45,399 bases of DNA from a virus. Position numbers and translations under genes: made by a program. The notes under the pieces are model-generated. The model saw nothing but the letters and a program-made list of their open reading frames with translations, was not told where the DNA came from and did no database searches. The DNA lies in IMG/VR virus record IMGVR_UViG_3300038553_000011, positions 1 through 45,399 of that record; one strand, written 5' to 3'. How positions within the stretch are numbered: the first letter of the stretch is position 1; each line of letters begins with the position of its first letter. This document shows, one piece after another, positions 1 to 39,861 of this stretch.

Positions 1-1371
1 ATGGTATGGAGAGGGCGCGTGCTCACAGACGCGAAAATCAAGGCGGCGAAGCCCCGCGACACCGCTTACAAGCTGGTCGACGCCGGGCAACTCTACCTGC
101 ACGTCACGCCGGCTGGTGGCCGGCACTGGCGGATGAATTACACCTATGGGAAAAACGGCCAGGGCAAGCCCGCGCAGAAGACGCTGAGCTTCGGGCCCTA
201 TCCGCAGCTGACCCTGCTCGACGCCCGGCGCAAGCGCGACGAGGCGAAGGAAATGCTCCGCGAGGGGCGCGACCCCGCCGTCGAGCGCAAGGTCGCGACA
301 CAGGCGCGCGCCGCCGAGAACGAGAACACGTTCAAGATTGTCGCGCTGCGCTGGCACGAACTGCGCCGGCCGACTTGGTCGACCGTGCACGCCGCCGACG
401 TGATGCAAAGCCTCGAGCGCGACGTTTTCCCCGAGATCGGCGACTTGCCGCTGAACAGCATCGAATCGCCGAAGGTGCTGGCGCTGCTAAACGCGGTCGA
501 GCAACGCGGCGCGATCGAGACGGCGCACCGGCTGCGCCAGCGGATCTCCGACATATTCGTCTATTCGATCGCCACCGGGCTCGCGAAGGCAGACCCGGCC
601 GCTTCGCTGGGCAAGGCCTTGCGCAAGAAGCCGCGTGCCAAAAAGCAGCCCTCGATCATCGATCGCATCCGCGATCACGACGGCCAGCTGAAGGCGGTTC
701 GCGAAATGCTCCGGGCCTGCGACGACGAGCGCTGCCGCGCGTCGACCAAGTTCGCGCTTCGCTTGCTCGCGCTGACCGCGGTTCGGCCGAACGAAATCCA
801 GAACGCCCGGTGGGACGAGCTGGAGGATCTGGACGGCGCGGAGCCGCTATGGCGCATCCCGGCCGCGCGCATGAAGGGCGATCAGGACCGCAAGGCCGAG
901 GAGGAGGGTGACCACCTTGTGCCGCTCTCGCGGCAGGCGGTCGAAGTGATCAAGGCGCTGCGCCCGCTGACTGGCGGCTATGCCCTGATGTTCCCGAGCG
1001 AACGGCACGTGCACCGGCCGATTTCGGAGAACACACTTCGCGCGCTGCTGATCCGCGCCGGCTTCTACCAGCGCCACGTGCCGCACGGCTTCCGCGCCGC
1101 CTTCTCGACCATCATGAACGACCGCCCGGATCGGCAGGAAGGCGATCGCGCCGTAATCGACCTGATGCTGGCCCACGTGCCCAAGGACAAGGTTGAGGGC
1201 GCTTACAACCGTGCCTCGTACATGCCGCGGCGCCGGGAGATCGCGCAGGAGTGGGCGGATATGGTGACGGCGGGGCTGGAGCCACCCGAAGCGCACGTGG
1301 GGCGGCCGATTCGTTGGGCAGACACGAAGCCGCTGGGACCGAGGAAGCACCTTCAGCAGGAGGCGCACTGA
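1..1371 (+). CDS. P4-type tyrosine recombinase / prophage integrase
   Basis: This 456-residue protein is a site-specific recombinase that would integrate and excise the prophage. The N-terminus has the DUF4102-like arm-binding domain of P4-type integrases (about residues 7-95), followed by a core-binding domain and the catalytic domain. Visible catalytic residues are Arg262 (in VRPNE), His362 and Arg365 (HGFR), His392 and the probable nucleophile Tyr402 (AYNR). A GTG at 19 with GGAG about 8 bases upstream gives a start that fits the family better than the ATG at 1. The last 25 residues (from about Leu426) extend beyond the usual fold, and their coding sequence recurs at 2032-2106. P4-type integrases usually target the 3' end of tRNA genes; that site would be upstream, outside the window. 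Confidence 0.93.
   Translation: MVWRGRVLTDAKIKAAKPRDTAYKLVDAGQLYLHVTPAGGRHWRMNYTYGKNGQGKPAQKTLSFGPYPQLTLLDARRKRDEAKEMLREGRDPAVERKVATQARAAENENTFKIVALRWHELRRPTWSTVHAADVMQSLERDVFPEIGDLPLNSIESPKVLALLNAVEQRGAIETAHRLRQRISDIFVYSIATGLAKADPAASLGKALRKKPRAKKQPSIIDRIRDHDGQLKAVREMLRACDDERCRASTKFALRLLALTAVRPNEIQNARWDELEDLDGAEPLWRIPAARMKGDQDRKAEEEGDHLVPLSRQAVEVIKALRPLTGGYALMFPSERHVHRPISENTLRALLIRAGFYQRHVPHGFRAAFSTIMNDRPDRQEGDRAVIDLMLAHVPKDKVEGAYNRASYMPRRREIAQEWADMVTAGLEPPEAHVGRPIRWADTKPLGPRKHLQQEAH
1282..1347 (+). repeat. Integrase-tail repeat, copy 1 (inside integrase)
   Basis: These 22 codons encode the integrase tail from PPEAHVG to PLGPRK. They match the 22 codons at 2032-2097 at 20 of 22 amino acids. 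Ten codons differ only silently, two give replacements (Ala/Val, Trp/Arg) and ten are identical. Confidence 0.9.
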
Positions 1372-3984: not shown

Positions 3985-4946
3985 GCCGCATAGACCTTGT
4001 CGACGAAGCCGCGCCCGCGGACCATCGTCTGATTGACCCATGTGATCCGCTCGGCCGAGAGGCGGCGAATATGGCCGCGGCGGAGGTGCGCGCGACACGT
4101 ATTGCGATCCCCCTCGCCCGATCCGTCACCGCCGAAATCGGCGCCCGCCAATTCGAGCACGTGGAAGCCGTACAGGGGCGGCTTGCCCTTTCTGACCCGC
4201 TGCTTGTTGAGCAGGGCCGGCGCCGGGTGCGCGCGGGTCGAAACGTTCTTACAGGCGAGCGCGCAAGCGAGATCGATGTACGCGTTCACCTCATCCATGA
4301 GATCGGCAAGGATGCCCTCGCGGGCACGCTCCGACCCGCTGGTGAGCGTTGCCATCGCGAGCGTCTCCGGAGAGACGATTATCGGGCTGGCGGGCAATGC
4401 CCGGGCTGCAGCCTGCGATTTGCTGATGCGCCCGGCCGCAATCATGAGGTCGCGAAATTCCCCGGTGCCGGGGTGATCCATCCAGCCGCCTTCATATTCG
4501 AAGTGCACCGCCGCAGCGATCGGCATCCATTTCTGATGCTCGTCATAGAAGGCGATCGAGGCGACCACGAAGCCCCGCGGCAGCGGCGGCATCGCGCCCA
4601 ACATCGTCGGCGGAAGATCGTCGGTGTAGTCCCACGCCAACGCGATCCGGCGAGAGCATGGGGATGCCGTATAAAAGCTGTCACCCCACTCGTTGCCCTG
4701 AGCGACATACTCCAGCGCCACGACCGGGAAGGGTGGGCGCAGGGCTGTCGCCGGCAGCTCGGGTCGCGGCTTGCCCCGATCGAGCAGCGTGCCAAAGTCG
4801 GGGAGGATGAACACCTCCGCCTGCTTGAGCTTGCCGATCAGGTACTCGACTCCGACCGCGGTGATAGGCGCGGAGCGCCGGGCCTCGATCGCCATCGCGG
4901 ACAGGTCAGCGATGGCCTTCGGCGTGAAGTTTAGCGGCTGGGTCAT
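3981..4946 (-). CDS. Conserved phage-type hypothetical protein
   Basis: This 321-residue protein is the longest product of the leftward operon. It has an N-terminal helical part (FTPKAIADLSAMAIEARR), a central segment with WDYTDDLPPTML and a C-terminal part with HLRRGHIRRLSAERITWVNQTMVRG. That RRGHxR...W(V/I) ending recurs in uncharacterised proteins of alphaproteobacterial phages. No catalytic motif was identified. The ATG at 4946 has GGAGG about seven bases upstream and overlaps the small membrane gene before it. Confidence 0.72.
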   Translation of the reverse strand: MTQPLNFTPKAIADLSAMAIEARRSAPITAVGVEYLIGKLKQAEVFILPDFGTLLDRGKPRPELPATALRPPFPVVALEYVAQGNEWGDSFYTASPCSRRIALAWDYTDDLPPTMLGAMPPLPRGFVVASIAFYDEHQKWMPIAAAVHFEYEGGWMDHPGTGEFRDLMIAAGRISKSQAAARALPASPIIVSPETLAMATLTSGSERAREGILADLMDEVNAYIDLACALACKNVSTRAHPAPALLNKQRVRKGKPPLYGFHVLELAGADFGGDGSGEGDRNTCRAHLRRGHIRRLSAERITWVNQTMVRGRGFVDKVYAA

Positions 4947-7426: not shown

Positions 7427-8026
7427 CTAGAGAGGCATGAACGCGCCGGTCACTTGCCCTATGACCGTATAGGGTGTCCGGCCGAGGGAAATCGGCTGGT
7501 GCGACGGGTCGGTTGAGCACGGCTCAAGCCGCGCAGGATCGGCGCGGTAGCGCTTCACGGTCGTCTCGCCCTCGCCGTTCATGATCGCGTACACCTTGCC
7601 CTCGCGAAGATCGGCCAGGTCAGGTTCGACGATGACATAGCCGCCATCGGGAACGAGCTGATCCATGCTGTTGCCGCGCGCCCGGAGCGCGAAGGCGTTC
7701 TCGCTGGCCTCGACCGCGGCAACGAAGCCGTCCGAGTTCGCGATTGCCTCTCGCCAATTGCCTGCGGCGATGTCGCCGACGAGGGGGACCATGCGAACGG
7801 GTCGAGGGGTAATCGCGCCGTCCGAGATCAGCTCGCGATCGGTAATGCCGAACGCGGTGGCGAGGCGCTCGACCCAGTCGAAATCAAGGCGCCGCTGCGA
7901 CTTCTCCAGCTTCATGATCTGCGACGCCGTCGTGCCGGCGCGGTCGGCCAGCTCAGCAAGGGACCAGCCGCGCTCTTGGCGCAACGCGCGGACGCGGTTC
8001 GGGATCGCTTCGCTCAACTTGGACAT
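7427..8026 (-). CDS. CI/LexA-type autocleavable phage repressor
   Basis: The 199-residue protein has an HTH_3 domain (about residues 5-65; WSLAELADRAGTTASQIMKLEK) and an S24 peptidase domain. Ser120 (GNSMD) and Lys158 (TVKRY) form the catalytic dyad, and the cleavable Ala88-Gly89 bond is present (AAGNW). These are the features needed for RecA-stimulated self-cleavage, so the prophage should be SOS-inducible. The ATG at 8026 has GAGGA upstream. The gene is flanked by inverted copies of one promoter-operator element and so represses both early operons. Confidence 0.92.
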   Translation of the reverse strand: MSKLSEAIPNRVRALRQERGWSLAELADRAGTTASQIMKLEKSQRRLDFDWVERLATAFGITDRELISDGAITPRPVRMVPLVGDIAAGNWREAIANSDGFVAAVEASENAFALRARGNSMDQLVPDGGYVIVEPDLADLREGKVYAIMNGEGETTVKRYRADPARLEPCSTDPSHQPISLGRTPYTVIGQVTGAFMPL

Positions 8027-8053
8027 CGACGTTCCTCTTCAGTTCGCCGTTCC

Positions 8054-8070
8054 ATATCCACAACGGATAT
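8054..8070. promoter_or_regulatory. Inverted repeat in the cI leader or promoter
   Basis: ATATCC and GGATAT are perfect 6-bp arms separated by five bases (ACAAC), about 30 bases upstream of the cI start. Its sequence is unlike the TGTCC operator, so it may bind another protein such as the Cro-like product, or form a leader hairpin. No clear -35/-10 pair for cI was identified. Confidence 0.4.
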
Positions 8071-8105
8071 TAAGGAGAAGTGCACAATATGGTTACGAGG
8101 ACGCG

Positions 8106-8134
8106 TTGACGCGTGTCCAAATGGGACATAAACT
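8106..8134 (+). promoter_or_regulatory. Rightward early promoter (PR-like)
   Basis: TTGACG (8106-8111) and TAAACT (8129-8134) are separated by 17 bases. Transcription would begin near 8141, essentially at the ATG of the cro-like gene. The element is the inverted counterpart of the leftward promoter: 24 of 26 bases at 8105-8130 match the reverse complement of 7374-7399. Confidence 0.7.
8114..8128. promoter_or_regulatory. Operator OR1
   Basis: TGTCCAAATGGGACA has the same 5-bp arms as OL1 and lies in the -35/-10 spacer of the rightward promoter. It is likely bound by the CI-type repressor and perhaps by the Cro-like protein. Confidence 0.72.
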
Positions 8135-8141
8135 GCTTGGC

Positions 8142-8360
8142 ATGCAGCTCAAAACCTACCTTGCCGCGAAGAGCATCACGCTCGAGGAGTTCGCGCGCCG
8201 CATCGGCGCAGCCAACGCCGGGGTCGTTCACAAGTACGCGAACAACGTTCGTGTGCCGCGGCCGAAGTACATGGCCGCGATCGTCCGCGAGACCGAGGGC
8301 GCGGTGCAACCCAACGATTTCTTCCAGATCGACGCGCTGGCGCCGACGAACGGGGAGTGA
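8142..8360 (+). CDS. Cro-like HTH protein
   Basis: This 72-residue protein consists of one Cro/C1-type HTH (MQLKTYLAAKSITLEEFARR and onward, about residues 1-40) plus a short C-terminal strand region. It is divergent from the repressor, as cro is in lambda. The ATG at 8121 lies inside the promoter spacer, so the ATG at 8142 is preferred. It falls at the predicted transcription start, so the message would be leaderless. Confidence 0.85.
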   Translation: MQLKTYLAAKSITLEEFARRIGAANAGVVHKYANNVRVPRPKYMAAIVRETEGAVQPNDFFQIDALAPTNGE

Positions 8361-8365
8361 CCGGC

Positions 8366-9373
8366 ATGCGGGGGGCGCACCGGTCGTCCGGTAGCGGCGG
8401 GTTCCGTCGGGACGAAGCCGAATTTCGTCGTCGCGTCGACGAGTTGAAAGCTCGCACGCCGATTTCGGGCGCGGTTGGCCGCGCGGTTAAGCTCAAGCGA
8501 TCGGGTCGCGAGCTTCAGAGCCTTTGCCCGTTCCACCAAGAGAAGTCGCCCAGCTTCTACGTCAACGACGCGAAGGGCTTCGCGCATTGCTTCGGCTGCG
8601 GCTGGCACGGCGATGTCATCCGCTTCGTCATGGACCGCGAGGGTTGCGACTTTCGCGAAGCATATCGGCGGCTGGCGAACGACGATCTTCCGACGTGGAC
8701 GCCATCGGAGCGCGCCAAGGCGCAAGCCGAGGACCGGCTTGAGGATCTGGCAAAGGAGCAAGCCGCCCGGAAATTCTTCGCGGAATCGGTGCCGATCGCT
8801 GGCACGCCCGGCGAAGTCTATCTGCGCGCCCGCGGCATCACACTCGCGCTACCGGACACGTCCTATGTGCGCTTCGGCATGGTGCCGTCGTGGCAGAACA
8901 AGGAAAGCGGCGAATGGGGCCGCAAGCGCCCGGCGATCGTCTGTGGTGCGCAGGACGGGACCGGGGCCGTCGTCGGTATTCAGCGCATATTCTTCCCCGG
9001 CGACGATCCGCGGCTGGGCAAGAAGGATTGCAAGCTGAGCCTCGGGACCATCCGGGGTTCGGCGCTGCGGCTGTCGCCGGCCGAGCCCGCCATCATCCTC
9101 GCCGAGGGGCCAGAAGACGGCCTTTCGATCATGCAGGAGGGGCCGGGCCTTCCGGTTTGGGTGCCGTTCGGCACCAGCATGATGCCGTCGGTTCAATATC
9201 CTTCCGAGGTTCGGCGGTGCATCATCGCCGGCCAGAACAACACAGCCGGCCGGGTCGCGGTGCAGAAAGCCGCTATCGCCTTGTCCGAGCGCGGCCTCGA
9301 CGTGGCGTTCGCCTGGCCGGCCGCACGGTTCGACGACTGGAACGACCAATTGCGGGCGGTGACAAATGACTGA
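8366..9373 (+). CDS. Phage DNA primase, CHC2 zinc finger plus Toprim-like
   Basis: The 335-residue protein has a CHC2 zinc-binding domain (Cys54, His57, Cys75 and Cys78; LCPFHQEKSP and HCFGCGWHG). A helical linker and a Toprim-like domain follow, with LAEGPEDGLS supplying the catalytic Glu. The second acidic Toprim motif, usually DxD before xxG, reads AGQNNTAG here. The ATG at 8366 has GGGGAG eight bases upstream; a GTG at 8357 would overlap that site. It should make RNA primers together with the DUF3987 protein encoded next (8-base overlap). Confidence 0.88.
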   Translation: MRGAHRSSGSGGFRRDEAEFRRRVDELKARTPISGAVGRAVKLKRSGRELQSLCPFHQEKSPSFYVNDAKGFAHCFGCGWHGDVIRFVMDREGCDFREAYRRLANDDLPTWTPSERAKAQAEDRLEDLAKEQAARKFFAESVPIAGTPGEVYLRARGITLALPDTSYVRFGMVPSWQNKESGEWGRKRPAIVCGAQDGTGAVVGIQRIFFPGDDPRLGKKDCKLSLGTIRGSALRLSPAEPAIILAEGPEDGLSIMQEGPGLPVWVPFGTSMMPSVQYPSEVRRCIIAGQNNTAGRVAVQKAAIALSERGLDVAFAWPAARFDDWNDQLRAVTND

Positions 9374-10898
9374 CGCCTTTGCCGAGCAATTCGGGGAAGC
9401 GACCCCGGCCGCGCTGCAGCCCCTCGACCTTCGCGGCACGATCGCCGAGGCGGTCGACTATCCCGTTGATGCGCTGAGCCCGGTGCTACGCGACGCGATC
9501 AAGGCGATCGAGGCTATCGCGCAGGTTCCGACCTCACTCGCGGCGCAATCCGTGCTCTCTGCCGCCGCGCTGGCGGCGCAGGGCTTCGTCAACGTGACGA
9601 CGATCACCGGCAAGGTCATCCCGGTTTCCCTGTTCCTGCTCAGCATCGCGGCGTCTGGTGACCGCAAATCGACGTCGGACAGCCTCGCAATCATGCCAGT
9701 CAAGGAGCGCGAGGAGCAGCTTGCCGTTCATTTCGAAACGCAGCGCCTGAACTACGCGGTCGATACCGAGGCGTACAAAGCTGCGACCCAGAAGGCGAAA
9801 AGCAGTGCGAAGGGCCGCGACGAAATCCGGCAGGCGTTGCAGGACGTCGGGACGCCACCGATCCCGCCAGTCCAGCCGCTTTTGACGGTCGACGAGCCAA
9901 CCGCGCCGGGCATCCAGCGCCTGTTCGCCGAAGCTATGCCGGCGCTCGGCCTGTTCTCCGACGAGGGCGCGACCTTCCTTGGCGGCTGGTCCATGCAGGA
10001 CGAGCAGCAAGCGTCGACCGGGGGCATGCTGTCGAAGTTGTGGGATGGTGCCCCGATCAAGCGCATCCGCGCCGACAAGGAAAACGGCACACAGATCCTC
10101 TACGGCCGGCGTCTGTCGCTGCACCTCATGGTGCAGCCGGACATTGCCGGGAAGCTGCTTGGCAACAAGGCGGTACGCAATCAGGGGCTGCTCAGCCGCA
10201 TTCTCGTCGCGGCCCCCAAGAGCCGCAAGGGTACGCGGTTCTGGGTCGAGCCGTCCGAAGAGCATCGCGACAACCTCGCAAAGTATCAGGCCCGGCTGGG
10301 GCAGCTGCTTGCGACCGAGTTCAACTTCAAAGACGCGACCTCGCGCGCGCTCGACCTCGAATTAGTCCGCTTGTCGCCGGACGCGAGGGCCGAGCTGATC
10401 CGCTTCAGTGACCATTGCGAAAAGTGCCTTGGGCCGGGCGGGAAGTACGAAACGATCGCCGATTTCGCGTCGAAGATGACCGAGAATGCCACGCGCATCG
10501 CCGCCGTGATCAGTTTCTTCGAGCAGCCGAACAAGCTCCGCACCGAAGGGCTCAGCATCCGCTACGCACGCGCCGGGATGGCGCTGATGGAGTTCTACGC
10601 CAGCGAAGCACTGCGGCTCTACGGCACGTCCGCCCTGGACGACGACACCGCGAACGCAGAGATCCTGATCGACTGGATCAGGAAGCGCGATCTGCCCGCG
10701 GTTGGCGTGCGGTTCCTGAACCGCCGCGGACCTCCTCAGGTGCGCAGCTCCGGGCCGCTCAAGCGCGCTATCGAGGTGCTGATCGACAACAACCACCTCG
10801 TTCGCATCGCCGGGGGCGCGACGCTTAGGCTCGAGCCCGAGGGCAAGGAGGTTTTCTACAAAGACGCGTACACGGTCGTCCCGCTGGGTGAGGCATGA
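9366..10898 (+). CDS. DUF3987-family replication protein
   Basis: This 510-residue protein matches the DUF3987 (YfjI-like) pattern: an N-terminal helical domain, FLLSIAASGDRKSTSDSLAI (a P-loop-like GDRKST), a central LFSDEGATFLGG (DEG, Walker-B-like), and a long helical C-terminus. These proteins accompany phage and plasmid primases and are thought to be helicase-like. It overlaps the primase by eight bases and the following iteron-carrying gene by four. Confidence 0.85.
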   Translation: MTDAFAEQFGEATPAALQPLDLRGTIAEAVDYPVDALSPVLRDAIKAIEAIAQVPTSLAAQSVLSAAALAAQGFVNVTTITGKVIPVSLFLLSIAASGDRKSTSDSLAIMPVKEREEQLAVHFETQRLNYAVDTEAYKAATQKAKSSAKGRDEIRQALQDVGTPPIPPVQPLLTVDEPTAPGIQRLFAEAMPALGLFSDEGATFLGGWSMQDEQQASTGGMLSKLWDGAPIKRIRADKENGTQILYGRRLSLHLMVQPDIAGKLLGNKAVRNQGLLSRILVAAPKSRKGTRFWVEPSEEHRDNLAKYQARLGQLLATEFNFKDATSRALDLELVRLSPDARAELIRFSDHCEKCLGPGGKYETIADFASKMTENATRIAAVISFFEQPNKLRTEGLSIRYARAGMALMEFYASEALRLYGTSALDDDTANAEILIDWIRKRDLPAVGVRFLNRRGPPQVRSSGPLKRAIEVLIDNNHLVRIAGGATLRLEPEGKEVFYKDAYTVVPLGEA

Positions 10899-11608
10899 GC
10901 GGCGATACCCTGTTCAGCGCCGGGTTCGATTGGAGCGACGATGTCGCGACGGATGCGACACCGGTTGCGACGCCAGCCAGCGCCACCACCACAGCCGCGC
11001 CCGCGACGCTGTCGCAACCCGCTGCGACAGTCGCAGCGACGCCCGGAGAAGCCCTTTTCTCAGGGGATTTCGACTGGTCCGCGCCCGATGTCGCAAGTGT
11101 CGCAAGTGTCGCAGCCGAGGCGAAAGTCCCCGAAGCTGTCGCAGTGTCGCGGCCGATTTCCGGGACACCTGTTGCGACACCGGAAACGGCGGATTTTTGC
11201 GGTGTTCAGGCCGATTCGCATGAGCGTGTCGCAGATGTCGCAAGTGTCGCAGGATGGCGTGAGGGCGTTGAGCTACTGACCCGAGGGCGCTGCCCGAAAG
11301 GCTATGATCCGCGACGGTGGCGCCAGCTCGTCGCAGACGCTCGCGCCTTGGTGCAGAACTGGGGCCCGGACTTCCACGCGCAGGGCTGGACGACGCTGGA
11401 GGTGTTCGGGGTGAACCCGGACCCCCGACGGCGGGGCAAGGGCTCGCGCGGATTGTTGCCGGTGCTGCAAGGCCGCGCTGTCGAGGCTGTCGATCGCGAT
11501 ACCGCACTGATCCGCGCCGGGCGCGTGGACAGGCAAACCTACCAGCGCCGGCTGGTAGCCCCGGGCGGTGTTCCGGTCTGGGAGCGGGTTTTGGGGGCTC
11601 GGCAGTGA
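10895..11608 (+). CDS. Replication-region protein whose gene carries iterons
   Basis: In this 237-residue protein the first half is low-complexity (Ala, Val, Thr, Ser) with a repeated LFS-x2-FDWS motif (about residues 6-12 and 50-56). The second half (about residues 115-237) is compact, with WREGVELLTRGRCPKGYDPR, a helix and a basic C-terminus. The low-complexity half is largely produced by DNA-level copies of TGTCGCA, read mostly as VA and once in another frame. Position after the primase pair and internal repeats suggest an O-like origin-binding protein, by analogy with lambda gene O. No known initiator fold was recognised. Confidence 0.7.
   Translation: MSGDTLFSAGFDWSDDVATDATPVATPASATTTAAPATLSQPAATVAATPGEALFSGDFDWSAPDVASVASVAAEAKVPEAVAVSRPISGTPVATPETADFCGVQADSHERVADVASVAGWREGVELLTRGRCPKGYDPRRWRQLVADARALVQNWGPDFHAQGWTTLEVFGVNPDPRRRGKGSRGLLPVLQGRAVEAVDRDTALIRAGRVDRQTYQRRLVAPGGVPVWERVLGARQ
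10954..11251. repeat. TGTCGCA iteron cluster, candidate replication origin
   Basis: Eleven exact copies of TGTCGCA or its complement start at 10954, 11010, 11023, 11089, 11098, 11107, 11137, 11173, 11227, 11236 and 11245. Two triplets (11089-11113 and 11227-11251) have a strict 9-bp period. Copies at 10954, 11023 and 11173 are inverted. The spacing and orientation mix resemble iterons of a phage origin embedded in a replication gene. Confidence 0.6.
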
Positions 11609-11742
11609 GGCCGTGGCGGCAGCCTGAGGAGGGGGCCGGGGATAGCGCCTCCAGCGCTACCCCGACCATCCCCGCCTTGTCAACAGGCATAGGGATTCCG
11701 GCGAACGTGCTGGCGAGAATTACGAGCGGAGTGGTGGCGTGA
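11605..11742 (+). CDS. Small translationally coupled protein, 45 residues
   Basis: A GTG at 11605 overlaps the previous stop (GTGA) and the stop at 11740-11742 overlaps the next ATG. The product (RPWRQPEEGAGDSASSATPT followed by IPALSTGIGIPANVLARITS) is short and partly hydrophobic. The exact fit between two genes supports it; no family was recognised. Confidence 0.5.
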   Translation: MRPWRQPEEGAGDSASSATPTIPALSTGIGIPANVLARITSGVVA

Positions 11743-12611
11743 TGAGCAGGAAAGACAAGGCGCAAGCGCGGGAGAAGGTGATGTTGGCGACGGTCGCGGC
11801 GAAGACGCCCGGCAGGCAGCCGACGAACAAGGATCGCGACGGGCCGACCCCGGAGCAGCACAACCACGCGACCTATGTGGTGCAGGACATCGTCGACAAG
11901 ATGGCGAACGGCGTCACGATCCGGGTCAACAAAGCGTACCGGCGGCAACCGATCTTCGAGACGCTGTGGAAGCAAACGGGATCAGGGATCTCGGTCGAGG
12001 GTCTGTTCGCCCTGCGCTATTATCGGGCACGATATGAAGAGACGGAGCAATCCCTGACCCGCTGCGCGCTCGACGTCCAAGGGCGGGGAGGGGGCTCCGA
12101 GGCTCCGCTCCCGCGCGGCATAGACGCGTTCATGTTCGTCGGGGAAGGCGCTGAACGAACCTTGGACCGTCTCGAGCAAGCCATGGGTGCTGTCGCTGAC
12201 ACGGTCCGGGCTGTCGCGCTAGAAGACCAGTCCTATTCCGACGTCGCTATCGCACGCTGGGGAAGTCGCAAGCAAAGCTGGATCCAGCAGCCTAACAAGC
12301 GCCAGGGCAAGGCGGTCAATGCGGAGAAGATCGTCCCGAAGTCAGGGCGGCACCGGGAGATCATCCGGCAGGAGTTCCTCCTCGGCCTGCGCCGGCTGGT
12401 CGAGGCAGTGCGCCTGCTCACCGCCAGCACCACCGAGTTGCGCCCGGACACCCGGCCTATCGTGGGCGTCGTGATGGACGATGGCGCCAAGCCGGTCACC
12501 GCATCAACCGCTGCACCGACCGACGTCGACCCCGAGTTCCTGAACGAGCAGGGATACCTGCGCGAGTGGGACGAGATCGCCAAGATTATCCGCACCCGGA
12601 CCGCAGCATGA
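11742..12611 (+). CDS. Hypothetical protein between replication and packaging genes
   Basis: This 289-residue protein has no recognised domain. The N-terminus is basic (SRKDKAQAREK), the middle has DIVDKMANGVTIRVNKAYRR, and a helix SYSDVAIARWGSRKQSWIQ precedes a long C-terminal helix and an acidic tail. The start is either ATG at 11742 or GTG at 11739. A position just before the terminase genes would suit a late-gene activator, but there is no direct sequence evidence for that. Confidence 0.68.
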   Translation: MSRKDKAQAREKVMLATVAAKTPGRQPTNKDRDGPTPEQHNHATYVVQDIVDKMANGVTIRVNKAYRRQPIFETLWKQTGSGISVEGLFALRYYRARYEETEQSLTRCALDVQGRGGGSEAPLPRGIDAFMFVGEGAERTLDRLEQAMGAVADTVRAVALEDQSYSDVAIARWGSRKQSWIQQPNKRQGKAVNAEKIVPKSGRHREIIRQEFLLGLRRLVEAVRLLTASTTELRPDTRPIVGVVMDDGAKPVTASTAAPTDVDPEFLNEQGYLREWDEIAKIIRTRTAA

Positions 12612-12722
12612 GGAGGCTTGCTCCGGGGCAGCGCATGTGGCACAGCGGGCGTCATTGGAATTGCGCCCGCACCTCTTCGGTGACCGGGTGCTTTGTCGTT
12701 ATGGCGATCGTCGGGGGTGAGG

Positions 12723-12935
12723 ATGGCAACGCAGCCCGCCCCTCTGACCGTTGCTCAGCAACTCGAACGCTTCGCCATCGACGTGCACGATATGGCCTTC
12801 GACTTCATGGAGCCGGCTCGCTCGCATCGAGACGCCGAGGGTCGCATTGCCCGTGTCGAAGACCTCGCTGACCGCCTGCGCGCAGCGGTTCGCGGGCGGG
12901 GTGTAACAATCTTGCGCAGCGACGCACGAACCTGA
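12723..12935 (+). CDS. Small hypothetical protein before the terminase genes
   Basis: This 70-residue, largely helical protein (LTVAQQLERFAIDVHDMAFD) ends in a basic segment. The ATG at 12723 follows a GGGGGTGAGG ribosome-binding site. It has no recognised family and is the last gene before the noncoding region upstream of the terminase. Confidence 0.6.
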   Translation: MATQPAPLTVAQQLERFAIDVHDMAFDFMEPARSHRDAEGRIARVEDLADRLRAAVRGRGVTILRSDART

Positions 12936-13122
12936 CGAGAGGGCGCAACATCATTGCGTCTGCCCGCGATTTCAGGGGGTTTCGTGGGTCCTTCCGGGCG
13001 TCTGACCCTATGCGGGGGCCAAAGGCGCGGAACGTTTCTAGCCACAAAACCTCATAGGTGCCGCCGCCTCGACGCAGTTTTTGGCGGATTTCGGCGATTC
13101 TTTACGGGTCGGAGGCGGCATT
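12936..13122. other. Noncoding region upstream of terminase, candidate cos site
   Basis: This 187-bp stretch lies directly before a Nu1/gpA-type terminase pair, where cos lies in lambda-like phages. It contains CGCAA-CATCA-TTGCG (12944-12958, imperfect twofold symmetry extending outward). Two related motifs end it: TTGGCGGATTTC (within 13078-13100) and TTTTGCGGATTTC (13121-13133). These could be cosN-like and small-terminase binding sites. The exact cut site cannot be read from sequence alone. Confidence 0.45.
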
Positions 13123-13626
13123 TTGCGGATTTCTGACCACAATCTGACCCGTGCCGACGTCGCGTGGCTGCTCGGTATGTCGGACAGCTGGGTCCGCGAC
13201 CGCATGCAGGCCGGCGATTTGCCCCGGCCAGGCGCGACCGCGGAGGAATATGTCGAGGCGTTCGTCGCCTTCAAAGTGGCGAAGCTGACCGGCGACGACG
13301 AAGGCGGAAGCTACGAGGTCGAGAAGACGCGGCTCACGCGCGAGCAGGCCGACGAGAAGGCAATGGATAACGCGGAGCGGCGCGGCGAGCTTGTGTCGCG
13401 GCCCGACATCACCCTCGCATTCGCGAGCGTGATCGCGCTGGCGGTGTCCCGGCTACAACTCGTGCCCGACGTCATCGCGAAGGGCGACCACAAGCTCCGC
13501 AAGCGGGTCGAAGCCGCGATGACCGATGCGCTCGAGGAATTGAGCATGACGCGCGTCGAGGAAGCGATGGGCGGGGGCATGGATGAGGAAGAAGACCTCG
13601 ACGCCCCCGGAGGCACCGAAGCCTGA
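13123..13626 (+). CDS. Terminase small subunit, Nu1-like
   Basis: The 167-residue protein begins with a winged-helix DNA-binding domain (LTRADVAWLLGMSDSWVRDR, then LPRPG) like lambda gpNu1. A charged linker and a C-terminal helical assembly part follow. A TTG at 13123 was chosen because GGAGG lies about nine bases upstream and the domain begins right after; a longer TTG-initiated form from 13081 is possible. It should bind cos and recruit the large subunit. It overlaps the large-subunit gene by 44 bases. Confidence 0.82.
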   Translation: MRISDHNLTRADVAWLLGMSDSWVRDRMQAGDLPRPGATAEEYVEAFVAFKVAKLTGDDEGGSYEVEKTRLTREQADEKAMDNAERRGELVSRPDITLAFASVIALAVSRLQLVPDVIAKGDHKLRKRVEAAMTDALEELSMTRVEEAMGGGMDEEEDLDAPGGTEA

Positions 13627-15574
13627 CACGCTGCGCGTCCGGCTAGCGGAAGTTGCCGACGCGGTCCGCGAATGTCTGGCGATCTTCAAGCCACGCGACA
13701 AACCGCCGCTGTCGATCTGGATGGCGGACCACGCGCGGCTTGATGACGGAAGCAGGTTCAGGGCGTTCCCCTTCCAGAACGGAATTGCCGATTCCTTCAC
13801 CGACCCCGAGACCTCGCAGGTCACGGTTCGCAAGAGCAGCCGCATCGGCTATTCGACCATCGTTCAGGGTTACACCGGCTATTGCATAGCCGCCGATCCG
13901 CGTCGGCTGCTGACCTATCAGCCGACGATCGATGACGCCGAGAATTACAGCAAGGACGATCTCGAGCCGGTCCTGAACTGGCCGGCGGTCCGCAAGGTCG
14001 CCACCTTCAAGCCGCGCCACCGCGACAACCAAATCCGGGCGAAACGCTTCAAAGGTGGCTGGATCCAGATCAAGGGCGCGAACAGCCCGAAAGAATTTCG
14101 CCGCGTCACGGCCGACAGCGTGTTGCTGGAGGAGCCGGACGGCTACCCGTGGTCGGCCAAGGAGGAAGGCGACCCCGCGCGGCTCGCGTTTAAGCGCAAC
14201 CTGACATCGCCGCGACGCTTCAGCGCCGCGGGATCGACGCCCAAGATCAAGGGCTGGAGCCGGATCGACGCCCTGTTCGAGCAGGGGACACAGGAATATC
14301 GGTATCTGCCATGTCCGCACTGCGGCACGATGCAGACCCTCGTGTTCGGCGACGGCACGGGGGCCGGCATTCGCTGGGAGCCGAAGCACAAGCCGAAACG
14401 GGCTTGGTATCGCTGCGTCGAAGGCTGCGACATTGACGAGAGCGACAAGCCCTCGATGGACGAGCAGGGCGAGTGGCGCGCCCACAATCCCGACGCCGGC
14501 CCGCGGCATCGCTCGTTCCATATCTGGGCCGCCTACAGCCAGTTCGAAGGCGCCTCGTGGCTGGAAATCGCCAAGGAGTTCATGGAGGTCTATAAGGACC
14601 CCAACCTTCTCAAGCCTTTCGTCAACCAGGTGCTCGGCGAAGCCTTCGTTGAAAAGGGTGAAGCGCCGGACTGGGAACGGCTCTACGATCGGCGCGAGAA
14701 AGAGATGGCGCTCGGCACTCCTCCATCATGGGCCGGGGTGCTGATCGGCGCTGCCGACGTCCAGCGCGGCGGCGGTGGCCGCATCGATCTCGACATTTGG
14801 GCATTCGGACCCAACCGAAAACGAGCCTTCGTTGAACGGATCGAGGTGTTCGGCCCGATCGCGGATGAGACGACGTGGAAGAAGCTCGACGTGGAAGTCG
14901 CCCGCGAGTGGCAGACCGCAGACGGCAAGCGGATGCGGCTGGCGCGCGTGGCGATCGATACCGGCGACGGCGAAAGCACGATGGACGTCTATCGCTGGGC
15001 CCGGCGTCATCCGGGCTTCGCGATGGCGGTGAAGGGCCGTGACACGCTCGCCGCATCGCAGGCGATTGGCGCGCCGACGTGGCAGGACGTCACGGTCAAG
15101 GGCAAGAAGATCAAGAAGGGCGTGCGGCTCTGGAACATCGGCACTTCGATGCTCAAGCTGGAGCTATTCGGGTCACTCGGGCTCGAGAAACCCGTCGACG
15201 GAGAGGAATACCCGGAGGGCTTTGTCTATCTGCCGGACGGCACGCCCGACGAGTGGATCAAGCAGCTCGTCGCGGAGGAGCTTCGGATGCATCGCCTTCG
15301 GTCGGGCGGTGTCCGGCGCGAGTGGCACAAGACGCGGGACCGCAACGAGGCGCTTGATAACGCGGTCTATGCTCGCGCCGTCGCTATCAGCCTCGGCGTC
15401 GACACATGGCCGGATTCGAAATGGCGTCAGATCCGCGGCGAGGTTTCGAGGAAGCGTCGCCCGCCGCCGACGACGCAAGGCCAGCCGGCCGAACAGCAAC
15501 AGCAGTCACCACCCCCGGCAGCAGCGCGCGCCAAGCGAGCGCGCCGACCGAACCCGTTCACCACGAGGAGGTAA
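13583..15574 (+). CDS. Terminase large subunit, gpA family
   Basis: This 663-residue packaging motor and nuclease has a deviant Walker A typical of gpA (RKSSRIGYS, residues 83-91). A Walker-B-like strand follows (SVLLEEPDGYP, 179-189), then a zinc-ribbon (CPHC at 244-247, CVEGC at 278-282). The C-terminal nuclease domain begins around VLIGAADVQ. The last 60 residues are basic and Gln/Pro-rich. It should cut concatemeric DNA and translocate it through the portal. Confidence 0.92.
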   Translation: MRKKTSTPPEAPKPDTLRVRLAEVADAVRECLAIFKPRDKPPLSIWMADHARLDDGSRFRAFPFQNGIADSFTDPETSQVTVRKSSRIGYSTIVQGYTGYCIAADPRRLLTYQPTIDDAENYSKDDLEPVLNWPAVRKVATFKPRHRDNQIRAKRFKGGWIQIKGANSPKEFRRVTADSVLLEEPDGYPWSAKEEGDPARLAFKRNLTSPRRFSAAGSTPKIKGWSRIDALFEQGTQEYRYLPCPHCGTMQTLVFGDGTGAGIRWEPKHKPKRAWYRCVEGCDIDESDKPSMDEQGEWRAHNPDAGPRHRSFHIWAAYSQFEGASWLEIAKEFMEVYKDPNLLKPFVNQVLGEAFVEKGEAPDWERLYDRREKEMALGTPPSWAGVLIGAADVQRGGGGRIDLDIWAFGPNRKRAFVERIEVFGPIADETTWKKLDVEVAREWQTADGKRMRLARVAIDTGDGESTMDVYRWARRHPGFAMAVKGRDTLAASQAIGAPTWQDVTVKGKKIKKGVRLWNIGTSMLKLELFGSLGLEKPVDGEEYPEGFVYLPDGTPDEWIKQLVAEELRMHRLRSGGVRREWHKTRDRNEALDNAVYARAVAISLGVDTWPDSKWRQIRGEVSRKRRPPPTTQGQPAEQQQQSPPPAAARAKRARRPNPFTTRR

Positions 15575-15576
15575 GG

Positions 15577-15792
15577 ATGGCATATACCCCCGCCGACCTC
15601 GAAAAGGTGCGCAAGGCCATTGCGTCCGGCGTGCGCAAAATCACCTTCGCCGACGGTCGGTCGACGGAATACCAGAACCTCGACCAACTGCTCGCGGCCG
15701 AGGAAGTGATCGCGGCGCAGATCAAGATGCAGGCGCAGGCGAGCAGCGGTATCCGCCGCCGCCGCGTCCCCTTCTACAAGAGTGGGCTCTGA
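15577..15792 (+). CDS. gpW-like head-tail connector
   Basis: The 71-residue protein matches lambda gpW in length and pattern. An N-terminal helix (TPADLEKVRKAIASGVRK) is followed by a short beta hairpin (ITFADGRSTEYQN) and a second helix, then a basic tail RRRRVPFYKSG. gpW binds below the portal to stabilise filled heads. The ATG at 15577 follows an AAGG ribosome-binding site and lies two bases after the terminase stop. Confidence 0.85.
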   Translation: MAYTPADLEKVRKAIASGVRKITFADGRSTEYQNLDQLLAAEEVIAAQIKMQAQASSGIRRRRVPFYKSGL

Positions 15793-15794
15793 TA

Positions 15795-17339
15795 GTGGCG
15801 GAGCGCTCGTTCATCGATCTCCTGCTCGGCCGGCAACCGAAGCCGGTCGCCGCGGAGCGCCCGGCTTCGCCGCGCATCCGTACTGGTCGCGGCGCCCGCG
15901 CGGAATACGACGGAGCTACGGTCGGCCGGCGCGCGGCAGGTTGGCGGCGCACCCGCCTGGACGCGAACAGCGAGCTTTCGCCGGCAGTGGCGGCGGCGCT
16001 GCGCGGAATCGCTCGCGACCTCGTCCGCAACAACCCTTATGCCGCCAGCGGCATCGCCTCGATCGTCAACAATCTGGTCGGCACGGGGATCACCTTTCAG
16101 GTCTATCGCGACGGCGTGATTGATGACCGGCTGAACAAGCTGGCACGCGAGCATTTCGATAAGCCGAACTGTGATGCCGCGGGGCGGCACGACCTTTACG
16201 GGCTCCAGTTGCAGGCCGCGCGCGCCATTGTGGAAAGCGGCGCTGCCGTTGTTCGTCAGCGCTGGCGGCGGCTCTCCGATCGCCTGCCGCTCCCGTTCCA
16301 GCTTCAGGTTCTCGAACCCGACTATATCGATCCGTCGAAACACGGGCCGCTCAGCAGCGCGCCGGGCGTGAACGGCGGCTATGTCGTAAACGGCATCCAG
16401 TTCAGCCCGCTCGGGCGCCGCGAGGGATACTGGCTGTACAACGGCCATCCCGGTGCCGCGCGTCCGAGCGCGCAAGGGTCGACATTCGTGCCAGCGCGCG
16501 AGATTGCCCACGTATTCCGCGCCGATCGCGCCGAGCAGGAACATGGCGCGACGTGGTTCGCGCCGATCATTCTGCGCATGAAGGATTTCGGCGACTTCGA
16601 AGACGCCGAGCTGACCCGCCAGAAACTCGCCTCGGCCTTTGTCGGCTTCGTTGCCGGCGATGATGCCGACGCGCCGGTGCCGGGCATCGAGACCGAGGAA
16701 GGGGTGACCTCCGACGGCTTCGAAGAGCGCGAGCCGCTCGATTATCTTGAGCCAGGCACCTTCCAGTATGGGCGCGCAGGGGAAGAGGTGACGTTTTCGA
16801 CCCCGCCCAAGAGTGACGGTTACAAGGATTATTCCAAGATCTCGTTGCTCGCGATCTCGGCCGGGCTCGGCGTCCCCTATGAGGAGCTGACCGGCGATCT
16901 GTCGGGCGTCAGCTTCATTTCGGGCCGCTTGGGCAAGCTGAAATACCAGCGCGCGGTGACGGTCTGGCAGTGGCTCATGTTCATCCCGCAATTCTGCGGA
17001 TCGGTGGAGCGCTGGTTCATGGAGGCGCTGGAAATTATCGGCGAGGACACGACGGGCGTGTCGATGAGGTGGACGCCGCCACGATTCCCGATGATGGACC
17101 CGGCGACCGAGATCCCTGCGATCCGCGACGCGATCCGCTCAGGCCAGATGACGCTATCCGGCGCTGCCGAGGAGCGCGGTGAGGACTTCGACACCTTTGT
17201 CGCGAAATGGTCCGCAGATGCCGGAAAACTCGATGAGCTTGGCCTGATCTTCGACAGCGACCCCCGCAGGGTCACCTCGGTCGGCAACGCCGTCCAGCCC
17301 ACCAGCCCCGCACGGTCGGAGCCTCCGAAAGGCAACTGA
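15795..17339 (+). CDS. Portal protein, gpB family
   Basis: This 514-residue protein follows the lambda portal pattern. An N-terminal segment is followed by ARDLVRNNPYAASGIASIVN, a central FQLQVLEPDYID and SKISLLAISAGLGVPYEELT, then a C-terminal helical crown. It forms the dodecameric DNA channel of the head. The GTG at 15795, two bases after the connector stop, was chosen because homologous sequence begins at AERSFIDLLLG. Confidence 0.92.
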   Translation: MAERSFIDLLLGRQPKPVAAERPASPRIRTGRGARAEYDGATVGRRAAGWRRTRLDANSELSPAVAAALRGIARDLVRNNPYAASGIASIVNNLVGTGITFQVYRDGVIDDRLNKLAREHFDKPNCDAAGRHDLYGLQLQAARAIVESGAAVVRQRWRRLSDRLPLPFQLQVLEPDYIDPSKHGPLSSAPGVNGGYVVNGIQFSPLGRREGYWLYNGHPGAARPSAQGSTFVPAREIAHVFRADRAEQEHGATWFAPIILRMKDFGDFEDAELTRQKLASAFVGFVAGDDADAPVPGIETEEGVTSDGFEEREPLDYLEPGTFQYGRAGEEVTFSTPPKSDGYKDYSKISLLAISAGLGVPYEELTGDLSGVSFISGRLGKLKYQRAVTVWQWLMFIPQFCGSVERWFMEALEIIGEDTTGVSMRWTPPRFPMMDPATEIPAIRDAIRSGQMTLSGAAEERGEDFDTFVAKWSADAGKLDELGLIFDSDPRRVTSVGNAVQPTSPARSEPPKGN

Positions 17340-17341
17340 AC

Positions 17342-19390
17342 ATGACGGAAATCCTGATGTACGGGATCGTCGGCGACAGCTGGGACGGTCTCGACGCGAA
17401 CACGCTCGTCCCGATGATCAGCGCCGGCGACGACGATCTCGACGTGCGGATCAACAGCCCGGGCGGTTACGTCATGGAGGGGCTGGCGATCTACAACGCG
17501 CTCATTCGCGAGCAAAAGAAGGGCCGCAAGGTCACGACCCATATCGACGGCCTCGCCGCATCGATGGCCTCGGTTATCGCGATGGCCGGCGAGGAGATCA
17601 TCATCGCGGAAAACGCGCTGATCATGATCCACAATCCTTGGGACTGTGCCTGCGGAGATGCCAACGAGCTGCGGCGCGCTGCCGACAAGCTCGACCGCCT
17701 GCGCGACCAGACCGTCAGCATCTACTCGGCCCAGACCGGCCTGACCGCCGACGATCTCATTCCGATGCTCGATGAAGAGACGTGGTTCACCGCGGAACAG
17801 GCACTCGAGCAGAATTTCGTCACGTCGATCGTCGGGGCGTCGACCGCCTCGGCCTGCAACGTGAAGCCATTCGGGTTCCGCAAGGCCCCCGATAGCCCGC
17901 TCATCACCTCAATGGCGATGGCGCGCACCCCGCGGACGGCCCCCGCCGCTCCTCAACGTCCACAGGAGACTCAAATGGACACGACGACTCAGCCGGCGGC
18001 CGAAACCAAGCCCGCCGCTCTCGACACCACGACCTCGGTCGTCGCGCTCAGCACCGCTGACGTGACCGCTGCCATCGCGGCCGAGCGCACCCGCGCCTCG
18101 ACCATTCGCATGCTCGGCAAGAAGCACGGCCTGGCCGACGACTTCATTGACGATCTGGTCGGCAGCGACACCCCGCTCGCCACCGCCCGCGAGAAGATCC
18201 TCGACAAGCTGGCCGAGGGCGGCGACGCCCAGAACATCGGTCATACCGCGCCCGCCCGCGTCACCAAGGACCAGCGCGACAAGTTCGTCGAAGGCGCCAG
18301 CAACTGGCTTCTCGTCAAATCGGGCGTGGCTCACCTCGTCGAACGGGCGGCTGCTCTCCGCGGCGAGACCGTCAAGGTCGATCCCGGCGAGTTCCGCGGC
18401 GTGCGCAACTCGGATCTGGCCCGCGAGGCGCTCAGCCTGTCGGGCATTCAGGCGAACGCGCGCGACCCGGAAATCCTCGTCCGCGAGGCGATGACCGCGC
18501 GCTCGGCGATCACTCAGTCGACCAGCGATTTCCCCATCCTGTTCGAAAACGCGGTGCATCGCATTCTGCAAGCCGCCTATGCGACCACGCCGGACACGTG
18601 GACCCGCTTCTGCGGCACGGGCACCGTGACCGACTTCCGCGCGCACACCCGCTACCTGCGCGGCTCGTTCGGCGCGCTCGACACGGTCAACGAGACCGGC
18701 GAGTTCAAGAACAAGCCGATTCCCGACCTCGCCAAGGAAGTGATCAAGGCGACCACCAAGGGCAACATCATCAACCTGTCGCGGCAGGCGATCGTCAACG
18801 ACGATATGGAGGTGTTCTCGGGGCTGGCCGTCGACCTTGGCCGGGCGGCGAAGCTGACGATCGAGATCGACGTCTATGCGCTGCTGAACGCCAATCCGCT
18901 CATGAACGACGGTGTGGCGCTTTTCCACGCGAGCCACGGCAACCTGATGACCGGCGCCGCGCCGTCGGTCGCGGCGTTCGACTCCATGCGTGTCGCGATG
19001 GCGTCGCAGAAGGATCTGAGCGGCAACGAGTTCCTCGACATCCGTCCCGCGGTTGGTCTGTTCCCGATCGCGCTCGGCGGAGCCGCGAAGGTCGTCAATG
19101 GCAGCGAATATGACCCTGACGCGGTGAACAAGCTCCAGCGGCCCAACATCGTGAAGGGCATGTTCGAGCAGATCGTGGACACGCCGCGTCTCACCGGCAC
19201 GCCGTGGTACGGCTTCGCCGATCCCAAGGTAGCGCCGGCAATCGAGGTGGTGTTCCTCAACGGCGTCACCGAGCCGTTCACCGACAGCCAGGACGGTTGG
19301 CGCGTGGACGGCGTAGAGTGGAAGGTCCGCCACGATTACGGCGTCGGCGCCGTAAACTGGCGCTCCGCCCAGAAGAACCCGGGCGCTTAA
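17342..19390 (+). CDS. ClpP-like prohead protease fused to major capsid protein
   Basis: Residues 1-190 are a ClpP-fold protease with Ser74 (GLAASMAS), His97 (MIHNPW) and Asp144 as a likely triad, used in other phages to mature the prohead. Residues about 190-330 are a Pro/Thr/Ala linker and a charged helical scaffold-like region. Residues about 330-682 read as an HK97-type capsid subunit (FRAHTRYLRGSFGALDTVNE and NIINLSRQAIVNDD). Lambda makes these as separate genes C, Nu3 and E. An ATG at 17975 (residue 212) preceded by CAGGAG would allow separate synthesis of the scaffold-capsid part. Confidence 0.9.
   Translation: MTEILMYGIVGDSWDGLDANTLVPMISAGDDDLDVRINSPGGYVMEGLAIYNALIREQKKGRKVTTHIDGLAASMASVIAMAGEEIIIAENALIMIHNPWDCACGDANELRRAADKLDRLRDQTVSIYSAQTGLTADDLIPMLDEETWFTAEQALEQNFVTSIVGASTASACNVKPFGFRKAPDSPLITSMAMARTPRTAPAAPQRPQETQMDTTTQPAAETKPAALDTTTSVVALSTADVTAAIAAERTRASTIRMLGKKHGLADDFIDDLVGSDTPLATAREKILDKLAEGGDAQNIGHTAPARVTKDQRDKFVEGASNWLLVKSGVAHLVERAAALRGETVKVDPGEFRGVRNSDLAREALSLSGIQANARDPEILVREAMTARSAITQSTSDFPILFENAVHRILQAAYATTPDTWTRFCGTGTVTDFRAHTRYLRGSFGALDTVNETGEFKNKPIPDLAKEVIKATTKGNIINLSRQAIVNDDMEVFSGLAVDLGRAAKLTIEIDVYALLNANPLMNDGVALFHASHGNLMTGAAPSVAAFDSMRVAMASQKDLSGNEFLDIRPAVGLFPIALGGAAKVVNGSEYDPDAVNKLQRPNIVKGMFEQIVDTPRLTGTPWYGFADPKVAPAIEVVFLNGVTEPFTDSQDGWRVDGVEWKVRHDYGVGAVNWRSAQKNPGA
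17975..17977 (+). promoter_or_regulatory. Probable internal translation start for scaffold-capsid part
   Basis: CAGGAGACTCAAATG places a good Shine-Dalgarno seven bases before an in-frame ATG, Met212 of the fusion. Initiation here would give a 471-residue protease-free product, resembling the nested Nu3 start in lambda gene C. Confidence 0.55.
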
Positions 19391-35508: not shown

Positions 35509-35715
35509 TCAGTTCGTCGATTCATCTAACGATAATCTTACATAATATCCTATTGTAATGCACACGAAAAATAGCGAAGATAAAGCAATAAGTCTAGAGA
35601 CGGACACAACTTGATCTTCCGTGATCTTCTCGTAGAGCAATATAACTGCTAAAATTACGACAACACCACGAAGGGCCTCCCACATTGCTTTAGCAATAAA
35701 GCGCGAATTTATCAT
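35509..35715 (-). CDS. Two-TM protein, putative immunity to the RHS toxin
   Basis: The 68-residue protein has two TM helices (ALRGVVVILAVILLYEKI and LIALSSLFFVCITIGYYV). It overlaps the RHS stop by four bases (ATGA), the typical placement of an immunity gene; an ATG at 35721 would add two residues. The sequence is strongly AT-rich relative to the phage. A membrane location suggests that the toxin acts on or at the inner membrane. The pairing is inferred from position only. Confidence 0.65.
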   Translation of the reverse strand: MINSRFIAKAMWEALRGVVVILAVILLYEKITEDQVVSVSRLIALSSLFFVCITIGYYVRLSLDESTN

Positions 35716-39806: not shown

Positions 39807-39861
39807 GTTCAATCCCCTTTTCTGTGCCCGGAACTTCATCGCCGCGCCGCGGCGACAACAA

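Follow-up and report, generated by a model that had tools for sequence, protein, structure and literature searches.

A TGTCGCA iteron array in the gene after a DUF3987 helicase as a candidate phage replication origin

Results

The array and its genes

We analysed a 45.4-kb virus contig over its whole length of 45,399 nucleotides (the window), which carries an integrase gene, a replication module, and terminase, portal, and capsid genes (Table 1). The sequence-only reading had placed a gene for a 237-aa protein after a primase and a DUF3987 protein. Both precede it; the direct predecessor is the DUF3987 gene (4-bp overlap), and the primase gene lies before that. DUF3987 proteins are predicted replicative helicases from their gene context (PMC5862659). 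No sigma-70-type promoter was found in the 8300-13700 region. A 1375-aa RHS-repeat protein is encoded on the minus strand (35712-39839) in a lower-GC segment at the prophage end.

An exact recount agreed with the reading's claim of eleven TGTCGCA copies in 298 bp, in both orientations and more than one reading frame, with two strict 9-bp triplets. Eight copies are forward (11010, 11089, 11098, 11107, 11137, 11227, 11236, and 11245) and three are reverse (10954, 11023, and 11173), giving the order R F R FFF F R FFF. The copy at 11010 lies in a different frame from the other exact forward copies. The whole window holds 14 copies, three of them in the remaining 45.1 kb, and the shuffle-based chance expectation for 298 bp is about 0.05. 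The 400-bp array stretch gives the strongest period-9 signal of the window (18 repeat pairs; next best, 5). One-mismatch sites at 10942, 10966, 11029, 11145, and 11329 make the cluster slightly longer. The array starts 56 bp past the helicase stop codon, and the placement is similar in relatives. Between the reverse site at 11173 and the second triplet lie the 40 bp of the array with the highest A+T content (near 11184-11224), a modest enrichment at 47% AT (91st percentile). The core motif within this stretch, GCGGATTTTTGCGG, matches GCRGATTTYTGCGG, which is present in the arrays of relatives.

Table 1. Coordinates of the genes and sequence features in the window
Feature	Position	Strand	Remark
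Integrase	1-1371		
Repressor-like gene	7665-8360		PHROG match
DnaG-type primase	8357-9373	+	CHC2 zinc finger, DUF7146, Toprim
DUF3987 helicase, proposed initiator	9366-10898	+	Pfam E 1.4e-81; PHROG DNA helicase
Helicase C-terminal winged-helix region, proposed iteron reader	10626-10880	+	AF2 model
Gene of the 237-aa protein, holding the array	10895-11608	+	
Iteron array, candidate replication origin	10954-11251	.	11 exact TGTCGCA/TGCGACA
First strict 9-bp TGTCGCA triplet	11089-11113	+	
Core motif GCGGATTTTTGCGG	11189-11202	+	within the array's 40 bp of highest A+T
Second strict 9-bp TGTCGCA triplet	11227-11251	+	
Nu1-like small terminase	13081-13626		
Lambda-type large terminase	13583-15574		
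Portal	15039-17339		
Capsid/protease	17342-19390		

A structure model of the 237-aa protein predicts that residues 1 to 117 are disordered and that residues 118 to 235 (about 11246-11599) form a folded domain; the iterons encode the disordered linker. By sequence or fold, the domain matched nothing in Pfam, NCBIfam, PHROG, or the PDB, and no DNA-binding fold was among its matches, so the protein is novel as the earlier reading held. Homology to lambda O was likewise absent from the Pfam, PHROG, and NCBIfam matches. Searching viral contigs with the full 237-aa protein, the helicase, or a single relative returned no matches, as these patterns were too specific. A short motif occurs twice in the disordered part (as TLFSAGFDWS and as ALFSGDFDWS, within 10895-11089), and relatives keep DLFSAGFAW at the N-terminus. 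This motif is possibly a protein-binding peptide.

The repeats are constrained as DNA

Scanning viral contigs blindly for three TGTCGCA at 9-bp spacing, we obtained 63 loci. About a third are collagen-like tail genes, and many triplet matches were set aside as collagen-like tail repeats. The homologues encoded at six loci (L016, L033, L035, L041, L057, and L067) are 39-54% identical over the folded domain, and these loci retain most of one geometry, as the window does. A triplet is followed by a single forward site 47-77 bp on and then by one or two reverse sites; paired reverse sites are 12 bp apart, and another triplet often comes next. Two more distant homologues (L037 and L052) have a short linker without iterons. 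Their arrays, of similar geometry, begin 5 and 2 bp past the stop codon of the homologue gene. At L085 and L108, the array also lies past the stop codon of the gene.

We also checked whether the repeats could follow from the peptide. A Val-Ala-rich repetitive linker, with the DNA repeats arising merely from codon bias or slippage, would suit the fact that most sites lie in one frame and encode Val-Ala in a disordered region. However, reverse and out-of-frame copies exist, and eleven copies were never reached in 5000 synonymous-codon shuffles of the 237-aa protein (mean 0.8 TGTCGCA, maximum 5). In the linkers of eight close relatives, Val-Ala is encoded by GTCGCA in 56 of 78 cases, compared with 4 of 31 in control regions (the helicase and the folded domain). 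The earlier reading had named a Val-Ala peptide kept with unrelated codons as what would speak against an origin, and these codon counts show the opposite. Because the array stands past the stop codon in relatives, where it is nearly identical outside the gene, and because of this codon use, we reject a purely peptide-level cause as extremely improbable. From these sequence comparisons, the constraint acts on the DNA rather than on the peptide.

Relatives keep the 9-bp period and change the word

Whole-genome searches covered one family (13/401 genomes), one class (10/385), and one phylum (17/299), bringing the homologue set to 61 distinct members. Near these homologues, exact 6-mer repeats at 9 bp sum to 753, with a median of 10 per locus, and 48 of the 61 loci have at least three. 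For comparison, the sum is 203 at period 12, 382 at period 18, and 27-96 at periods not divisible by 3, and the mean in codon-shuffled controls is under 2. The repeated words differ between homologues and include TGTCGCA, TGTAGCA, TGTTCC, TTTAGCC, TGTCCC, TTGATCA, TTCCCA, GATGCTC, GTCCCAAC, and others, the words being assigned partly by eye.

By a stricter cut, 37 of the 61 loci have a compact array. Eighteen of these arrays lie in the linker of the small gene, ten at the 3′ end of the helicase gene, six downstream of the small gene, and two between genes; one was scored inside the domain, which is probably a domain-boundary effect. The other 24 homologues showed no array of at least five repeat pairs within the scanned span.

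One gene (L035 / L100 / L104) carries two arrays with two words, TGTAGCA and TGTCGCA, and looks as if one word were giving way to another. Within some arrays (L132, L151, L148, L110, and L005), the iterons form hairpins, such as TGTCCCCACTC-AAAAAC-GAGTGGGGACA at L132. A phage record (G012, locus L174) has TGTCGCA arrays at both 4412-4502 and 12054-12152, 7.6 kb apart and of nearly the same geometry, one beside a helicase and the other not.

AT-rich spacers and a shared 17-mer

At five loci (L137, L170, L171, L172, and L112), sets of forward and of reverse sites enclose an AT-rich stretch whose A+T content ranks around the 99th percentile or higher for its locus; L112 has this layout with TGTCGCA itself. 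In the published description, PICI origins always have two iteron sets flanking an AT-rich region (PMC6092414). The layout of the window array is more complex than this.

The core 17-mer GCGGATTTCTGCGGGTT, noted together with 11189-11202 of the window, was found in 81 viral contigs (loci L176-L255). In several of them, it directly follows the 3′ end of a helicase or primase gene and is framed by element-specific inverted repeats (e.g. L205, L206, L203, and L208). Locus L005 has the perfect palindrome CCGCAGAAATCTGCGG. Checking the 39 nearest ORFs, we find matches to D5_N (5), Prim-Pol (4), VapE (2), and DUF3987 (1), these counts overlapping, while most match no replication family. As only a minority match, the 17-mer is no more than suggestive as an origin signature; it could be an origin core common to these phages or a phage signal of another kind. 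The 4.7-Mb genome G001 (locus L156) has only two GCRGATTTYTGCGG copies, about 8 kb either side of its prophage array, and the array itself has none. In the literature searched, we found no mention of these motifs.

The helicase is the better candidate for reading the iterons

The gene directly upstream is DUF3987 in nearly all alphaproteobacterial loci; in other loci, the upstream helicase is DUF927, AAA_25, or VapE. Such helicase types are known or predicted to interchange in the primase modules of mobile elements (PMC5862659). Among the blind-scan loci, at least 13 of the 17 with both orientations are beside a replicative helicase by our models and Pfam together, compared with 0 of the other 46 by the models, Pfam having been run on some of these 46.

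We assembled a control set of five DUF3987 genes without the small domain nearby (L169-L173). Four of the five (L169-L172) have 9-bp arrays, the one at L169 not clearly resolved on inspection, and L173 has none. Three blind-scan loci (L018, L020, and L060) have a DUF3987 or AAA_25/Prim-Pol helicase with no small domain detected, and at L095, from the genome scan, an array stands beside a DUF3987 helicase, again with the small domain not detected. In view of control loci L169-L172, we gave up a strict assignment of the array to the small protein.

The last 90 residues of the window helicase are a confidently predicted winged helix, with AF2 pLDDT above 90 over most of them and the secondary structure order helix-strand-helix-helix-strand-strand. 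Compared with the PDB, many of its matches are winged helices, all weak and none significant. In Mantel tests, which are confounded by shared ancestry, the distance between words correlated with helicase distance (r = 0.68 for the core and 0.59 for the C-terminus), the agreement being closer for the core than for the winged helix. The correlation with small-domain distance was 0.39, and near 0 once the helicase core was controlled. As word, helicase, and small domain are inherited together, we take the word-helicase correlation as supporting evidence only. The earlier reading had suggested checking whether iteron sequence and protein vary together in relatives; the words do differ, and what they follow is the helicase rather than the 237-aa protein.

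These results bear on the alternative that the origin is real and that the folded domain of the 237-aa protein reads the iterons, as an initiator or helicase loader in the manner of lambda O or RSF1010 RepC, and brings in the helicase later. The domain and the arrays co-occur beside four unrelated helicase families, which suggests a common partner, and in the window group the array lies within the domain's own gene. However, arrays stand beside DUF3987 where the domain is not detectable (L169-L172, L018, L060, and L095), the word follows the helicase, and the domain lacks a match to a DNA-binding fold. We consider this alternative unlikely. The earlier proposal of an origin embedded in its own initiator gene is supported in that the iterons of the candidate origin lie in coding sequence. 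That this gene is the initiator is not supported, since the array leaves the gene in relatives and occurs beside helicases without the protein. From structure models and sequence comparison, we infer that the DUF3987 helicase is a better candidate for the initiator than the 237-aa protein, whose folded domain probably plays an accessory part in this replication module.

Discussion

Comparison with known origins

As proposed for the window, the SaPI and PICI pri-rep-ori modules have genes for a primase and a self-loading initiator helicase with a short-iteron origin directly behind them, and the two iteron sets flanking an AT-rich region recur in several of our relatives (PMC6092414). SaPI Rep and SCCmec Cch2 use their C-terminal domains to bind iterons that lie shortly past their own genes (PMC7581432), and in the window the iterons are immediately 3′ of the proposed initiator helicase gene. 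Unlike these satellites, which lack their own structural genes, the window is a prophage that encodes an integrase, a portal, capsid proteins, and a terminase of its own, so the phage is not a PICI. Its helicase is also of the DUF3987 family, and its array is inside the next coding sequence. By analogy, the array most likely works like a SaPI/PICI origin. As related elements keep the 9-bp layout and change the word, it is probably a coding-sequence version of this known type of phage-satellite origin.

SCCmec Cch2 has short direct repeats just downstream and inverted repeats nearby (PMC7581432). It resembles the window in having a helicase with a C-terminal DNA-binding domain (predicted here) and short repeats downstream, whereas the window has another helicase family, a 7-bp word at 9-bp spacing, and many more copies. 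In phage lambda, the ori iterons are inside the replication gene O (PMC7466680), and the window iterons are also inside a replication gene. In lambda this gene encodes the initiator itself, and an AT-rich tract stands to one side of the iterons; those of the window lie in both orientations in the gene after the proposed initiator. Unlike lambda O, the iteron-bearing gene of the window probably does not encode the initiator. The P4 alpha protein is a primase-helicase-initiator reading short iterons, a binding we predict for the window helicase, while the window primase and helicase are separate genes of other families. P4 has both ori and crr, to which the paired arrays of L174, 7.6 kb apart, may be likened.

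A proposed origin read by the DUF3987 helicase

We think it fairly likely that the array is the phage origin, that it is read by the DUF3987 helicase, and that its iterons are carried by the next gene, in the part that encodes a disordered linker. Once the phage is induced, the DUF3987 protein would bind the TGTCGCA iterons via its C-terminal winged helix, open the A+T-richer stretch near 11184-11224, and load itself as the replicative helicase, while the CHC2/Toprim primase next door would make primers. The origin would then follow the initiator gene without a gap, an order also seen in SaPIs and PICIs. Since the space past the initiator is occupied by the next gene, the iterons would have been written into its disordered N-terminal linker. 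The sequences show the array, its conservation as DNA, its place beside replicative helicases, and the change of word from element to element, whereas we infer helicase binding, melting, and replication start.

Clusters of repeats near a terminase small-subunit gene are also typical of cosB-type sites. Nu1-like small and lambda-type large terminase genes lie downstream of the array, the former 1.8 kb away, and a cosB or pac packaging site to which the small subunit binds would fit this arrangement. However, the array stays with the helicase at L157, L158, L160, and L162, where no relatives of the window's terminase were found in 19 kb each, so the repeats are not tied to the small-subunit gene as in a lambda-type cosB. 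Arrays are also present in loci chosen solely for a DUF3987 gene, and those of relatives stand where the helicase gene ends or in the gene that follows it. A packaging site is quite improbable on these grounds. Regulators also bind short repeats, and the repressor-like gene of the window could point to operator sites for a phage repressor or an autoregulator of the replication operon. Yet the array lies inside or downstream of the last replication genes rather than at a promoter, and its copy number, the forward/AT-rich/reverse layout, and the word diversity suit origins better. We regard operators as highly improbable.

Implications

Beyond the proposed origin of this phage, Proteobacterial phages and islands may contain a widespread class of origins embedded in coding sequence that has yet to be described. 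Here a cassette of 9-bp-period iterons and an unnamed small protein family would be joined to four or more unrelated self-loading helicases. Each lineage would set its own word, and the GCRGATTTYTGCGG core would be read in alphaproteobacterial phages by a common, perhaps host, factor. Taken as a whole, we hold this wider reading as tentative, a possibility with the odds somewhat against it. If the proposed origin is right, a 9-bp periodicity beside a helicase gene could locate origins from sequence alone, and this would apply to many uncharacterised Proteobacterial prophages and islands. The pairs of word and winged helix would form a natural data set on origin recognition by these helicases. 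The DUF3987 family would gain a concrete DNA target, and the finding would point to an unnamed protein family in replication modules.
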